From: a virus
Reading direction: 5' to 3' (one strand)
Virus record (IMG/VR): IMGVR_UViG_3300021226_000021
Coordinates: 1 to 29,474 of that record
DNA: 29,474 nucleotides
Shown here: piece after piece, positions 531-29,474 of the stretch
Layout of the letters: every line of letters starts with the position of its first letter
Numbering within the stretch: position 1 is the stretch's first letter
Notes under the pieces: generated by a model
The model's input: the letters and a program-made list of their open reading frames with translations, nothing else
Databases searched by the model: none
What the model was told of the DNA's origin: nothing
Position numbers and translations under genes: made by a program

Positions 531-559
531 TTGACAAGTTGAACAATGTGTGTTATAAT
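531..559 (+). promoter_or_regulatory. Sigma70 promoter P1 for the packaging genes
   Basis: TTGACA at 531-536 and TATAAT at 554-559 are both perfect consensus hexamers separated by 17 bases, with an extended -10 (TGT directly before TATAAT). The bases after the -10 box, through ACATA, are shared with the promoters at 5269 and 14993. The promoter implies transcription by unmodified host RNA polymerase. It reads into terS. Confidence 0.93.
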
Positions 560-581
560 AAATACATATAAGCAATTAAGG

Positions 582-612
582 AAGCTTAGATAATTATTAA
601 CTTAATAAGCTT
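582..612 (+). repeat. Inverted repeat in the terS leader
   Basis: AAGCTTA at 582-588 is complementary to TAAGCTT at 606-612. Between and overlapping them TTATTAA (594-600), C, TTAATAA (602-608) forms a second odd palindrome, so two alternative hairpins compete. No U-tract follows, so a simple terminator is unlikely. The function is unknown. Confidence 0.6.
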
Positions 613-614
613 AG

Positions 615-646
615 GCTTATAAGTAACTACATAGTTACTTATAAGC
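615..646 (+). repeat. Perfect 15-bp inverted repeat with a 2-base loop
   Basis: GCTTATAAGTAACTA at 615-629 is the exact reverse complement of 632-646, with only CA between. As RNA it would make a long, perfectly paired hairpin in the terS leader. As DNA it is a near-continuous palindrome suited to a dimeric protein or cruciform. It lacks a U-tract. The right arm runs six bases into the first 21-bp tandem repeat. An RNase III processing site, an operator or part of a packaging site are all possible. Confidence 0.85.
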
Positions 647-703
647 TGCACAGATTGACTCAGAAGCCGTACAGAAGGGCATAGAAGCCGCACAGAAGGA
701 CTT
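641..703 (+). repeat. Three tandem 21-bp repeats abutting the terS start codon
   Basis: Units run 641-661, 662-682 and 683-703. The second and third agree at 18 of 21 positions, and the first matches the third at 16 of 21. The shared core is AGAAGCCG, one variable base, ACAGAAGG. The last unit ends at the base before the ATG at 704 and supplies its Shine-Dalgarno (AAGGA, 693-697). A 21-bp period is two helical turns, so the units would face the same side of DNA, as in iteron-like binding sites. A terS or pac recognition site is a reasonable guess. Confidence 0.8.
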
Positions 704-1078
704 ATGAACATAGATGTTCCTGTTAGAAAAAGAGGCCGTCCTAAGAAGACAGATATTGTTGCCAAGACTCCCGGCAAGCGTAATGCTGTTGGAAGACCAA
801 AAGGGGAGCAGGCCATAATTAATGAATATCGTGCTAGGATGTTAAACAGTCCTAAGAGCGAGAAAGTTATTGAGGCCATCTATGGGGCAGCTTTGGACGA
901 TAACCACAAGAACCAAGCAGCAGCATGGAAGCTCATCATGGATAGGTTGTTGCCTCTCAGTCATTTCGAGAAAGACAAGAATGGTGGTGGCAGGGCTGCT
1001 GTGTCTATCACTATCACTGGTGTTGGTGGGGAGCAAACCATCATCTCAGGTGGAGACGAAGAGGTTATTGATGTCTAA
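704..1078 (+). CDS. terS: Probable terminase small subunit
   Basis: A 124-residue, basic N-terminal protein placed directly before the packaging genes. Residues 8-15 (RKRGRPKK) and 30-33 (GRPK) are AT-hook-like motifs that bind the DNA minor groove, common at the N terminus of small terminases of this size. The middle (about 45-80) is helical, and the tail is acidic. In the virus it would recognise the genome packaging site and load the large terminase. The start has AAGGA six bases upstream. The protein could itself bind the adjacent 21-bp repeats (inference). Identity rests on position, size and AT-hooks rather than on a catalytic motif. Confidence 0.72.
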   Translation: MNIDVPVRKRGRPKKTDIVAKTPGKRNAVGRPKGEQAIINEYRARMLNSPKSEKVIEAIYGAALDDNHKNQAAAWKLIMDRLLPLSHFEKDKNGGGRAAVSITITGVGGEQTIISGGDEEVIDV

Positions 1079-1601
1079 AGATGTTGTTGAACAGAAACTA
1101 AAGAAGCTTGGTTATAGTGATGCTGCCATTGCTGGTATGCTTGGAAACATCTCTGTTGAAACAGGGGACACGTTTAATTACAAGATGAAGCAAGAGGGAG
1201 GCCCGGGCTATGGGCTGTTACAGCTTGACTTCTTAAAACCACATTATGAAAAGTGGAAGAAGCAGAATAAAATAAAAGACAGTGCTGATGCTCAGCTCAA
1301 GTTTTTCCATGACACCGTTTATGGGAAGAGCCAGAACATCATTGGAGCAGGGAATGCTGCCAAACTGCGGGATGTGTTAGAAACAGAACAAGACCCTGCT
1401 GTTGTTGCTGATGTGTTGGCTAAGGGATGGTTTAAACCCAACCCAGAGCGTAACCCAAAGTATGATGAGAGAGCACAGTATGCCTTACAGGTGAGTGGTT
1501 ATCAGCCTCCTGTTCCTCCTGCTCCTGCTCCTCCAGAGCCTTCTTGGTGGGAAAACCCCTTAGCAAGAACAAAGAGTGCTTTAGGGAGTTTGTTTGACTA
1601 G
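1071..1601 (+). CDS. Lysozyme-like peptidoglycan hydrolase (phage tail lysozyme type)
   Basis: A 176-residue protein that probably cleaves the glycan strands of peptidoglycan. Residues 1-145 resemble the phage tail-lysozyme family (Phage_lysozyme2, PF18013, from memory): a helix ending NISVETG offers Glu30 as the likely catalytic acid, followed by GPGYGLLQLD. A Pro-rich linker (PPVPPAPAPPEP) and a short Trp-containing tail follow. No signal peptide is visible. The start at 1071 is chosen because GAGG lies seven bases before it and it overlaps the terS stop by eight bases. Further upstream the frame runs inside terS. The position between the terminase genes is unusual and may mean a virion-associated enzyme rather than the main endolysin, which is more likely the M15 enzyme at 14049. 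Confidence 0.7.
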   Translation: MSKDVVEQKLKKLGYSDAAIAGMLGNISVETGDTFNYKMKQEGGPGYGLLQLDFLKPHYEKWKKQNKIKDSADAQLKFFHDTVYGKSQNIIGAGNAAKLRDVLETEQDPAVVADVLAKGWFKPNPERNPKYDERAQYALQVSGYQPPVPPAPAPPEPSWWENPLARTKSALGSLFD

Positions 1602-2841
1602 TTTAGATATTAAGCTGTTGCCGTGGCAGCAAACTGTGTGGAATGACAAGAGTCGTTTCAAGGTGGTGGCTGCTGGACGAAGGACAGGTAAGAGCCGCTT
1701 GGCTGCCTATTTGTTGTTGTTCAATGCCTTGCAAGCAGAGAAGGGACATGTGTTCTATGTTGCCCCTACACAGGGACAGGCAAGGGACATTATGTGGCAA
1801 ACCCTGCTTGAGGTGGGGCATGCTGTCATCTCAGGAAGTCATGTTAACAACTTACAGGTGAAGCTTGTTAACGGAGCCACCATTAGTTTAAAGGGTGCTG
1901 ACAGACCAGAAACTATGCGAGGAGTATCCTTGAAGTTTCTGGTGATGGACGAATATGCAGACATGAAGCCAGAGGTGTGGGAACAGATTTTACGTCCTGC
2001 CTTGGCTGACCAGAAGGGACACGCCTTGTTCATTGGAACACCAATGGGCAGAAACCATTTCTATGAGCTGTACCAGTATGGCTTGTCTGAGAAAGATGAG
2101 ACATTCAAGAGCTGGCATTTCACCAGCTATGACAACCCTCTCATTGACCCAGAAGAGATTGAGAGTGCTAAGAAGAACATGAGCAGCTTTGCCTTTAGGC
2201 AAGAGTTCATGGCTTCGTTTGAGGCACAGGGTGGAGAATTGTTCAAAGAAGAATGGGTACAGTTTGATGAAGAGGAGCCTGATGGTGACTACTTCATTGC
2301 CATTGACTTGGCTGGCTTTGCAGATGAGAGCAAGGGAAGCAAGAGCAAGAAGCTGGATGACAGTGCCATAGCCATTGTGAAGACCAATGACAAGGGCTGG
2401 TATGTTAAGGATATTGTCTTTGGACGTTGGACAGTGGAAGACACAGCAAAGAAGATATTTGCTGCTGTTAAGAAGTATGAGCCTGTGTCAATTGGAATTG
2501 AGAAGGGCATTGCCAAGCAAGCTGTGATGCCTTATTTGTCAGATATAATGAGAAGAACACAGACGTTCTTTAGAGTGGAAGAGCTAAGTCATGGAAACAA
2601 AAAGAAAACAGATCGAATTGTATGGGCATTACAAGGGCGTTTTGAACACGGTCAAATTGTCCTTAACAAGGGAGAGTGGAACATACAGTTTCTTGACCAA
2701 CTCTTCCAATTTCCAAATACTCTTGTGCATGATGACTTGATTGATGCTCTGAGTTACATAGAACAGCTCAGTAAGCAAAGCTATGTGACAGACTTTGAAG
2801 AAGAAGAATTTGAACCAATGGACGCTTTAAGCGGATACTAA
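1594..2841 (+). CDS. terL: Terminase large subunit
   Basis: The 415-residue ATPase-nuclease motor that packages DNA into proheads and cuts the concatemer. The Walker A motif is GRRTGKS at 28-34, Walker B is LKFLVMDE at 113-120, and the FIGTPMGRNHFYE coupling motif follows. The C-terminal RNase H-like nuclease begins at FIAIDLAG (first metal Asp), with later acidic residues in EKGIAK and DDLIDALSY. The only start with a ribosome site is TTG at 1594 (GGGAG at 1584-1588, spacer five), since no in-frame ATG occurs before the Walker A region. It overlaps the lysozyme-like gene by eight bases. The length is slightly short for the family but complete. Confidence 0.96.
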   Translation: MTSLDIKLLPWQQTVWNDKSRFKVVAAGRRTGKSRLAAYLLLFNALQAEKGHVFYVAPTQGQARDIMWQTLLEVGHAVISGSHVNNLQVKLVNGATISLKGADRPETMRGVSLKFLVMDEYADMKPEVWEQILRPALADQKGHALFIGTPMGRNHFYELYQYGLSEKDETFKSWHFTSYDNPLIDPEEIESAKKNMSSFAFRQEFMASFEAQGGELFKEEWVQFDEEEPDGDYFIAIDLAGFADESKGSKSKKLDDSAIAIVKTNDKGWYVKDIVFGRWTVEDTAKKIFAAVKKYEPVSIGIEKGIAKQAVMPYLSDIMRRTQTFFRVEELSHGNKKKTDRIVWALQGRFEHGQIVLNKGEWNIQFLDQLFQFPNTLVHDDLIDALSYIEQLSKQSYVTDFEEEEFEPMDALSGY

Positions 2842-7659: not shown

Positions 7660-8898
7660 ATGGGAATATTTCGTGGTGTTGGAGGCACAGGAGAATCCTC
7701 TAGCGACTCAACAATTAATGCAACGACAGCTCTAGCTAATGCAGCAGCAGCTTCAGCAGCGGCAGCTTTGGCCTCTGAAACGGCTGCTGAGACAGCAGAA
7801 ACGAATGCAGCCTCCTCTGCTTCTTCTGCTTCTACATCAGCCACAAGTGCTGCTAGTTCAGCTTCTGCTGCCAGTACATCAGCCACCAATGCAGCTTCTA
7901 GTGCTTCTAGTGCCTCAAGCTCAGCAAGCTCAGCCAGCACACAAGCTACGAATGCAGCTTCTAGTGCATCTGATGCAGATACAAGTGCTACGGCTGCTGC
8001 TAGTTCAGCTTCTGCTGCTAGCACATCAGCCAGTACAGCAAGTACACAAGCTAGTAATGCAGCAACTTCTGCTACCAATGCTGCTTCTAGTGCAAGTGCT
8101 GCCTCAACATCAGCAACCAATGCTGCTGGTTCAGCAAGCACAGCTACAACTCAAGCAAGCAATGCAAGCACTTCAGCTACAAACGCTGCTAGTTCTGCTT
8201 CATCTGCAAGTACATCTGCTACAAATGCTGCCTCTAGTGCAACCAGTGCTTCTGGGTCTGCTTCAGCAGCTTCTACATCAGCAACTAGTGCTGCTTCTTC
8301 TGCTTCTGCTGCTGCTACTAGTGCAACTAATGCTGCTAGTTCTGCGTCTAGTGCTTCTACCTCTGCAAGCACAGCTACAACACAGGCAGGAATAGCCACC
8401 ACTAAAGCTTCAGAAGCTGCTACTTCTGCCACTAATGCTGCTTCCTCTGCCAGTGCAGCATCTACCAGTGCAACCAATGCTGCTTCTAGTGCTTCTACGG
8501 CAAGCACAGCAGCCTCTACAGCTACCACTAAAGCTTCTGAAGCCTCTACATCAGCAAGTAATGCAGCAACCAGTGCTACAAATGCAGCAGCCTCTGCTAC
8601 CCTTGCTGCTTCATATACCCCTTCTCAGACAGGGAATAGTGGTAAGTTTCTAACTACCAATGGTACAAACACATCATGGGCAGCAGTGGATGCCTTGCCT
8701 AGTCAGACAGGGAATGCTAATAAATATTTAAAGACTGATGGGACAACAGCTTCTTGGGCTACAGTGACCACAGCATCTTTTGTTTTCCCTTTCTATAAAA
8801 CTAATGGAACATCTGATACTATTCCATTGATTAGCAATACACTCTTGCCTTTCACAAATTATACAGGTACTGCTAAGAACATTGCTTTAACATCTTAA
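7660..8898 (+). CDS. Ala/Ser/Thr-repeat tail fiber protein
   Basis: A 412-residue fiber. Residues about 20-315 are almost only Ala, Ser, Thr and Asn in degenerate blocks such as [14 protein letters not shown], the low-complexity pattern of side-tail-fiber shafts (lambda Stf-like, Phage_fiber repeats PF03335 from memory), likely a trimeric coiled coil. The C-terminal part has two copies of a SQTGN-x-x-K-(F/Y)-L-x-T-(N/D)-G-T-x-x-SWA motif (about 320 and 347), then a short non-repetitive end. The N-terminal [12 protein letters not shown] may dock to the virion. AAGGAG precedes the ATG. The repeat DNA (GCTAGTTCTGCTTCT-like) is prone to recombination, so repeat number may vary. Confidence 0.85.
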
Positions 8899-13288: not shown

Positions 13289-13598
13289 AAAGAATTCCCA
13301 ATTTAATCAGTTTGATTCTGATGGAGACGGTGTAGTTACTGATGAGGAATTGAATCGTTCAGAACGAATGATGATGCTTGAGAATATGGACAAGCTTGCT
13401 GACCAGCAACGTATTATGTCTTGGTTTGCTTTGGCACTTCCTCCTGCTGTCATTTGTTTTCTTGCTTCAGCCTTAGTAACATTAGAAAAAGTAAATGCAT
13501 TGAATGGTTTAGCAACTACATATTGTGCTGCTATGGGTACTATTGTTGTAGCATTCATGGCTGCTAATGCTTATACACGTGGAAAGATGCATGAATGA
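13272..13598 (+). CDS. EF-hand membrane protein, holin candidate
   Basis: A 108-residue protein that joins a canonical 12-residue calcium-binding EF-hand loop (DSDGDGVVTDEE, about 15-26, with Asp at 1, 3 and 5, Gly at 6 and Glu at 12) to two membrane helices (FALALPPAVICFLASALVTL and AAMGTIVVAFMAANAY) near a charged C terminus. Related EF-hand, two-helix proteins are found in marine phage genomes as far as I recall, without known function. Two helices and position directly before Rz suggest a holin whose activity could respond to divalent metal (inference). AAGGA precedes the ATG, and it overlaps its upstream neighbour by 17 bases and Rz by four (ATGA). Confidence 0.78.
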   Translation: MTKTLEKNSQFNQFDSDGDGVVTDEELNRSERMMMLENMDKLADQQRIMSWFALALPPAVICFLASALVTLEKVNALNGLATTYCAAMGTIVVAFMAANAYTRGKMHE

Positions 13599-14068
13599 AA
13601 GTATTATTAGCATGTGTTCTTATCCTTGTTGCATTAGGTGGTGCTTATTGGAAAGGCACATATGACAAGGGTTTAGCTGTTGCTGTAGAAGTGGCAGAAG
13701 CTAATGAACAAGCAAGACAAGTAGAAACACAAATGGCTGTTGTAGCAACAACTTATGCAACAACCTTAAGGAAGAATGAAAGTAATGCTCAAAAGAAAAT
13801 ATCTGATCTTCGTACTGCTGTTGCCTCTGGTGAGCGCAAGCTGTTCATTCCTACCGAAGCCCCCAACTGTGGTATACAAGCCTCCACAGATGCCTCCCCT
13901 GCCAGTGGAAGTGACACAGGAGAAGCACGAGCCGAACTTGACAGAAAGGTTGCTGATTCTCTTATCGCCTTAACAGCAGAAGGAGACACAGCAATTCGTA
14001 AGCTCAACACTTGCATTGAACAATATAACACAATTAAGGACAAACTAAATGACTCAGCTATCCGCTAA
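13595..14068 (+). CDS. Rz: Inner-membrane spanin (Rz-like)
   Basis: A 157-residue i-spanin. It has a single N-terminal membrane helix (VLLACVLILVALGGAYW, about 3-19) without a cleavage site, then a long periplasmic helical domain (about 25-80 and 110-150) with coiled-coil character and the AIRKLNTCIEQYNTI ending seen in Rz proteins. After the endolysin has cut the wall it joins the outer-membrane partner to fuse the two membranes. That partner is encoded inside this gene in the +1 frame (13776-13973). The ATG overlaps the upstream stop. The presence of a spanin pair is the best evidence for a Gram-negative host. Confidence 0.87.
   Translation: MKVLLACVLILVALGGAYWKGTYDKGLAVAVEVAEANEQARQVETQMAVVATTYATTLRKNESNAQKKISDLRTAVASGERKLFIPTEAPNCGIQASTDASPASGSDTGEARAELDRKVADSLIALTAEGDTAIRKLNTCIEQYNTIKDKLNDSAIR
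13776..13973 (+). CDS. Rz1: Outer-membrane spanin lipoprotein (Rz1-like) nested in Rz
   Basis: A 65-residue lipoprotein fully contained in the Rz gene, read one base forward. It has a basic N-terminal start (LKRKY), a hydrophobic core (LIFVLLLPLVSA) and Cys23 as the probable lipidated residue in a VSASC lipobox (Ser at -3 is a little off consensus). The predicted mature peptide is short and Pro-rich (FLPKPPTVVYKPPQMPPLP), about ten Pro in 43 residues, as in lambda Rz1. The start could be ATG 13776 or ATG 13785; both keep the signal peptide. A nested Rz/Rz1 arrangement is well known in lambdoid and other phages, which makes this call strong despite its overlap. Confidence 0.86.
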   Translation: MKVMLKRKYLIFVLLLPLVSASCSFLPKPPTVVYKPPQMPPLPVEVTQEKHEPNLTERLLILLSP

Positions 14069-29279: not shown

Positions 29280-29337
29280 AGATCGGAAGAGCGTCGTGTA
29301 GGGAAAGAGTGTAGATCTCGGGGGTCGCCGTAGCATT
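29280..29337 (+). other. Illumina P5 / universal adapter (reverse complement)
   Basis: The 58 bases from AGATCGGAAGAGCGTCGTGT onward are the reverse complement of the TruSeq universal adapter through the P5 end. Two T-to-G differences are visible, at 29322 and 29333. Together with P7 at the left end, the contig has the strand topology of a single sequencing-library molecule. Phage sequence ends at 29279; the A at 29280 is ambiguous. Confidence 0.97.
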
Positions 29338-29474
29338 ACAAAAAAAAGAACTGAACAAGTATGAAGCAGTGGCAAGGAACGATATACTGCAGCGTATGAA
29401 GTAAAAACACAAGCACAGATAGTATATACGTCAATAGCATCAAGAAAAGTAATATAGAGACACTCCACTAGAGG
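29338..29474. other. Non-biological read tail beyond the P5 adapter
   Basis: This A-rich tail follows the end of P5. Read on the opposite strand it shows a T-tract directly before AATGATACGG, the mirror image of the left end and the expected poly-T spacer of the flow-cell oligonucleotide. Nothing in it looks coding. Confidence 0.85.

Follow-up and report, generated by a model that had tools for sequence, protein, structure and literature searches.

What is the role of a tandem array of 21-bp repeats that ends exactly at the start codon of a presumptive small terminase gene? The question arises from a window of 29,474 bases (the whole stretch of DNA that was analysed, corresponding to one virus record, IMGVR_UViG_3300021226_000021), in which only positions ~248-29279 are phage DNA. 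Positions 184-247 are an embedded Illumina P7/TruSeq adapter (P7, index GCCTAA and TruSeq read 2), and positions 29280-29312 are the read-1 adapter in reverse complement. The segments outside the adapters (1-183 and ~29313-29474) match none of the relatives compared and should stay unannotated. The late genes, namely the presumptive terS, tail lysozyme, terL, T7-like portal and major head protein, and internal virion protein, are on the plus strand of the window, and the nucleotide-metabolism genes are on the minus strand. In full-length relatives the rightward operon begins with terS, and the leftward early operon, which encodes a T7-type primase-helicase, a PolA polymerase and an exonuclease, starts across a divergent intergenic region of ~0.9 kb. 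Elsewhere in the window there is an Rz/Rz1-like spanin pair (13595-14068 and 13776-13973, judged by eye only), the lipoprotein-like second gene being nested in another frame of the first. A 412-aa open reading frame at 7660-8898, with low-complexity Ala/Ser/Thr repeats and DNA periods of 21 and 42 bp, is likely a fibre or structural protein.

The array itself consists of three units:

641-661, plus strand: repeat unit 1, ATAAGCTGCACAGATTGACTC; the most degenerate, 80% pairwise identity between genomes
662-682, plus strand: repeat unit 2, AGAAGCCGTACAGAAGGGCAT; 92% between genomes, though not the terS ribosome site
683-703, plus strand: repeat unit 3, AGAAGCCGCACAGAAGGACTT; 96% between genomes, with AGAAGGA at 694-700 as the presumed terS Shine-Dalgarno sequence

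The presumptive terS ATG occupies 704-706, immediately 3' of unit 3. An earlier note on this DNA had described three 21-bp tandem units running up to that ATG, and our analysis confirms the description. Units 1 and 2 are identical at 13/21 positions, units 2 and 3 at 18/21 and units 1 and 3 at 16/21, so that the units do become more degenerate with distance from the gene, as had also been claimed. Tandem Repeats Finder (TRF) reports 643-701 with period 21, 2.8 copies and a score of 69. The lag-21 self-match score in 247-703 is 17.5 versus a shuffled mean of 8.2 (sd 1.1), and none of 2000 dinucleotide shuffles of this region attains the score of the array at any lag from 3 to 60. Each 21-mer is in turn an imperfect 11+10 half-repeat of AGAAG..., AGAAGCCGCAC and AGAAGGACTT (TRF row 661-698, period 11). 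No other convincing copy of the unit was found in the window, where the only other matches have 3 mismatches.

The genes that follow the array are these:

704-1078, plus strand: presumptive terS; the 124-aa product has AT-hook motifs at its N-terminus, a helical middle part and a predicted beta hairpin at its C-terminus
1071-1601, plus strand: gene for a phage tail lysozyme-like protein (PF18013, E 9e-16), located between terS and terL
1606-2841, plus strand: large terminase gene terL (phrog_2, E 2e-45; Terminase_6N, E 5e-20)

The 124-aa protein is presumptively a small terminase on account of its position, its size, the AT-hook motifs, the predicted C-terminal beta hairpin and a weak similarity to DUF5681. 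Its gene is the first of the packaging operon and close to terL (1606), with the lysozyme gene between them. The Pfam hits to AT_hook (E 0.0046) and DUF5681 (E 0.011) are both below cut-off, there is no PHROG, NCBIfam or solved-structure match, and no helix-turn-helix is recognised in the sequence. The AF2 model is of low confidence (mean pLDDT 60.6), and a structure search with it gave Z values below 4 and BFVD matches that are unnamed or DUF5681 phage proteins; with a model of this quality, no TerS fold is among the structure matches listed. Cultured phages gave no TerS match, and nothing of use was found in the literature on DUF5681. The AT-hooks had earlier been taken to link TerS to the repeats. 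This argument loses its force, as RGRPKK and GRPKG are also present in distant TerS relatives without the array. Since, in addition, the units are the G+C-richer portion of the leader, the hooks do not explain the repeats.

Upstream of the gene, the following elements frame the array:

307-386, no strand assigned: non-coding block CCGGGGGAGGGG ... ATACAAAAAAGGGCTAAAATAG, outside the array; strongly conserved, with 95% pairwise identity across the clade
531-559, plus strand: sigma-70 promoter TTGACA-17-TATAAT with TG before the -10; 12/12 consensus positions, near-consensus in relatives too
561-586, plus strand: presumed first part of the transcript; almost invariant across the clade (97% pairwise identity)
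615-646, plus strand: perfect 15-bp inverted repeat with a 2-nt centre (GCTTATAAGTAACTA / TAGTTACTTATAAGC), a strong predicted RNA hairpin

The array thus sits in a leader of ~140 nt behind a sigma-70 promoter and a 32-bp palindrome, and transcription would start near 565, as judged from the promoter. The right arm of the palindrome overlaps unit 1. Its core, GTAACTA..TAGTTAC, is kept in most of the clade and is missing in three members (L015, L019 and L020). The palindrome is the only strong structure of the RNA leader (z -3.1 for 566-730) and could be either an operator or an RNA hairpin. Beyond it, no conserved RNA structure was detected in the array, in which pairing is weak and compensatory changes are absent. 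The tendency of the array to be single-stranded does not clearly exceed that of its shuffled versions (z 0.1-2.0), and we rejected the notion of a specially unstructured leader on these values. Rfam gave no family match other than the tRNA in L001, the relative that is closest to the window (98% identity over 1.8 kb). The block at 307-386 lies upstream of the promoter, within the divergent intergenic region, and its G-run and ATACAAAA..AGGG core are recognisable even in distant clades in which TerS is only ~65% identical. It may be a leftward promoter, an origin or a packaging signal.

To establish how widespread the array is, we searched viral contigs and obtained 24 close relatives, with TerS identities of 89-99%, and a further 16, for most of which the value is 52-62%. 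The earlier note had made its proposal depend in part on conservation of the repeat in relatives, and the array is indeed present, with 2-4 units, in 23 of the 24 close relatives, the remaining one being truncated upstream. Three units are the most common number, with four in L021, two in L010/L011 and two recognisable in L014/L024. Scanning the whole viral collection for the unit returned the 24 terS contigs and three others, in all three of which it falls inside an unrelated reading frame; in nine clade records examined from end to end, terS is the only place with near-perfect copies. The unit is absent from relatives with 53-74% TerS identity, most of which retain a near-consensus sigma-70 promoter before terS and the same AT-hook motifs, and it follows that the array is lineage-specific. 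The array is a real, conserved element of the leader in this lineage, while the promoter, the leader and the AT-hook protein are shared across the family. Throughout the family, short-period repeats that are unrelated in sequence abound in the intergenic region. We also considered whether helical-phase repeats are a feature of terS leaders in all clades (lag 10, z 4.5). However, the DNA upstream of the promoter, used as a control, has equal or stronger 9-11 bp periodicity, and this generalisation was therefore dropped. Because other clades, too, often have short direct repeats with a lag of 9-11 bp upstream of the promoter, the array is less special than it appears.

One account of such an array is slippage: a segment with the ribosome site was duplicated in tandem, only the last copy matters, and units 1 and 2 are tolerated leftovers. 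A copy number that varies from 2 to 4, the low conservation of unit 1 and the unrelated short-period repeats throughout the family are all in line with this account, and changes in copy number occur at the 5' end of the array. However, the pattern of conservation does not fit it well. Pairwise identity between genomes is 96% for unit 3, 92% for unit 2 and 80% for unit 1, compared with 71% for the spacer at 387-526, 86% for the promoter and 87% for the 5' end of terS. Unit 2 is thus nearly as conserved as unit 3 and far more than the spacer, which points to constraint beyond the role of a terS ribosome site. The units have not been homogenised either: within one genome they are 78% identical, and a unit resembles its counterpart at the same position in other genomes more closely than its neighbours in the same array. 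Individual conservation of units 3 and 2 also argues against a freely expanding minisatellite. Since the close relatives are only moderately diverged, this conservation is informative, not overwhelming. Together with the persistence of the array where the ribosome site lies elsewhere, these observations make us regard leftover duplication as a possible but rather unlikely explanation.

Natural variants in which the array and the gene are separated bear on the same issue. In two relatives a gene for tRNA-Trp lies in between, together with a ribosome site that is distinct from the array, CTTAAGGATAAAGATG:

L001, 450-523: tRNA-Trp gene between array and terS
L002, 2908-2981: tRNA-Trp gene between array and terS

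L010 and L011 have a shorter spacer, also with its own ribosome site. In all four genomes the array provides no start site, and it still has two or three near-consensus units. Ending exactly at the ATG is therefore a common property of the array, not an essential one. It may be that the tRNA genes were inserted too recently for the array to have decayed visibly. The proposal that the last unit supplies the ribosome site is supported for most members: AGAAGGA plays this role in the window and in most of the fused members, whereas spacer-bearing members use a site of their own. In the window the site is short-spaced: the aligned spacing of AGAAGGA to the ATG is 1, the median for the other window genes with a recognisable site being ~6. 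The leader ACATCTCC..AAGG, common to L001, L010 and L034, had prompted the idea that the fused array derives from a tRNA- or spacer-bearing ancestor. We did not adopt this idea, since in the tree the fused state of array and ATG is widespread and the spacer states are nested; no direction is claimed. Another kind of variation is a 40-52 bp insertion between units 1 and 2 in L005, L009, L013 and L014. It affects the same array junction in two separate branches, and some of the insertions have an inverted repeat of their own, CTTAGTTGTT..AACAACTAAG.

As 21 bp equal seven codons, the repeats might alternatively be a coding remnant, the 3' end of a small upstream open reading frame with seven-codon repeats (AAQIDSEAVQKGIEAAQKDL and then a stop) whose stop codon overlaps the terS ATG. 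The frame is open in many members and ends in ATGA in the window. Nevertheless, in the window a stop at 642-644 precedes the frame, which has no ATG, GTG or TTG start; in relatives the frame is broken by spacings of 32, 65 and 73 bp, and the ATGA overlap is not conserved (L007 and L014). With start, frame and stop not kept across relatives, a coding origin is largely refuted, and we consider it hardly credible. An N-terminal extension of TerS through the repeats was likewise discarded, because in the window unit 1 contains a stop and no start codon is present.

The position of the array invites comparison with known packaging sites. In SPP1, pac overlaps the promoters, the ribosome-binding site and the start of gene 1 (terS), and the terminase represses its own synthesis (PMC6316719). 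This precedent makes TerS autoregulation, suggested by the earlier note, a reasonable idea. SPP1 pac also contains direct repeats; however, the DNA-binding domain of SF6 TerS bound both SPP1 and SF6 pac DNA with no preference for the repeat boxes (PMC4737164), a result that calls for caution in taking repeats as recognition sites. Much as in SPP1/SF6 pac, direct repeats here lie at the ribosome site and start of the presumptive terS, in the leader up to the ATG. The likeness is one of arrangement, binding of TerS to pac and repression of its own synthesis being features of SPP1/SF6. There are also differences: here a single 21-bp unit is repeated in tandem and ends at the ATG, with no sequence relation shown; AT-hook motifs are present in the presumptive TerS, in which a helix-turn-helix is not recognised; and the array has no predicted bend (4-24 degrees in a wedge model, an indicative value that is not above shuffles). 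Short TerS recognition sites in the packaging region are known from lambda/HK97 cos, and in HK97 recognition has a 15-bp minimal site (PMC10370121); the array resembles these as a candidate only. Unlike in lambda/HK97, no fixed ends were seen in the relatives, and no cos cleavage site was identified.

If the array were a site of the SPP1 type, a TerS oligomer would bind the repeats on one face of the DNA, mark the concatemer for cutting by TerL (pac) and repress its own transcription or translation. Several observations fit such a site. The period of 21 bp corresponds to two helical turns, with 11+10 half-units, the 32-bp spacing inserted in L002 likewise corresponds to full helical turns, and the array is unique in the genome. 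Two complete relatives (39.1 and 39.9 kb) have exact terminal overlaps of 55 and 123 bp and assemble as circles whose break points are far from each other, neither being near terS or the array. Different break points, as for permuted headful genomes, are compatible with headful packaging, but they locate no start, and circular replicative DNA would look alike. On the other hand, contig ends near the intergenic region are scattered on both sides of the conserved block with no pile-up at the array, which gives no indication of physical ends near either the array or the block at 307-386. Absence of the array from TerS relatives with the same AT-hooks, the indifference of the SF6/SPP1 domain to pac repeats, the unremarkable bend and the presumptive identity of the 124-aa protein further weaken this possibility, which, like leftover duplication, we regard as possible but rather unlikely.

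Direct repeats spaced by about two helical turns beside AT-rich DNA are also characteristic of iteron-type origins of replication. It could thus be asked whether the array is an iteron-like part of an origin, with the adjacent AT-rich leader as the unwinding element. AT-rich DNA does lie directly upstream of the array, and in a complete relative the cumulative GC-skew minimum falls within the divergent intergenic region, although this minimum is confounded with divergent transcription. In the same region of other clades, ~350-600 bp before terS, there are tandem DnaA-box-like repeats, TGTGGATAAC, with a period of ~11 bp (L092, L093, L114, L117-L119, L139 and L149), and their sequence suggests a replication origin there. 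In the clade of the window, however, such repeats were not seen, and there are no DnaA boxes near the array. Moreover, unlike iteron-type systems, these phages have T7-type replication genes (primase-helicase and PolA polymerase), and the early genes that were examined include no recognised initiator of the iteron-binding kind, several early proteins being unannotated. An origin is accordingly very unlikely as the explanation of the array.

Taken together, our analysis favors, at a probability of roughly 45%, the array being a control element of terS and the late operon in their leader, with the last unit doubling as the ribosome site. Several lines of evidence argue for it. Units 3 and 2 are conserved at or above the level of the promoter and the 5' end of terS; the array is limited to the terS leader, downstream of a conserved promoter; it persists in L001/L002 and L010/L011, where it does not supply the start site; and in the window and most fused members unit 3 provides AGAAGGA. 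Against it weigh the negative results on RNA structure and single-strandedness, the moderate divergence of the close relatives, the possibly recent date of the tRNA insertions and the frequency of short repeats before the promoter in other clades. If this reading is right, the array would be a cis-acting element, old but confined to one lineage, and would belong to the 5' leader of the rightward operon of late genes (packaging and structural). The transcript would begin at the sigma-70 promoter at 531-559 and have a leader with the hairpin-forming palindrome followed by the 21-bp units. Unit 3 would act as a short-spaced Shine-Dalgarno site, a modest ribosome site for the presumptive terS. The upstream unit or units may be read by a regulator of phage or host origin, TerS itself being one candidate, and in this way the units would serve as a control site for expression of terS and the late operon. 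It is tempting to go further and suppose that an AT-hook TerS, from a family without a cultured member, recognises the helically phased 21-bp array in its own leader and couples the start of packaging to self-repression, the repeat sequences having been replaced in each clade and the architecture kept; we consider this decidedly improbable.

If the array only controls translation or transcription from the leader, it would be an unusual repeat in an otherwise ordinary regulatory element of a phage. To our knowledge, recognition sites of TerS are poorly understood, and specific binding has been demonstrated for very few phages. The array, being short, conserved, unique in the genome and next to terS of an uncultured phage family, offers a defined stretch of 63 bp on which binding and packaging could be tested.
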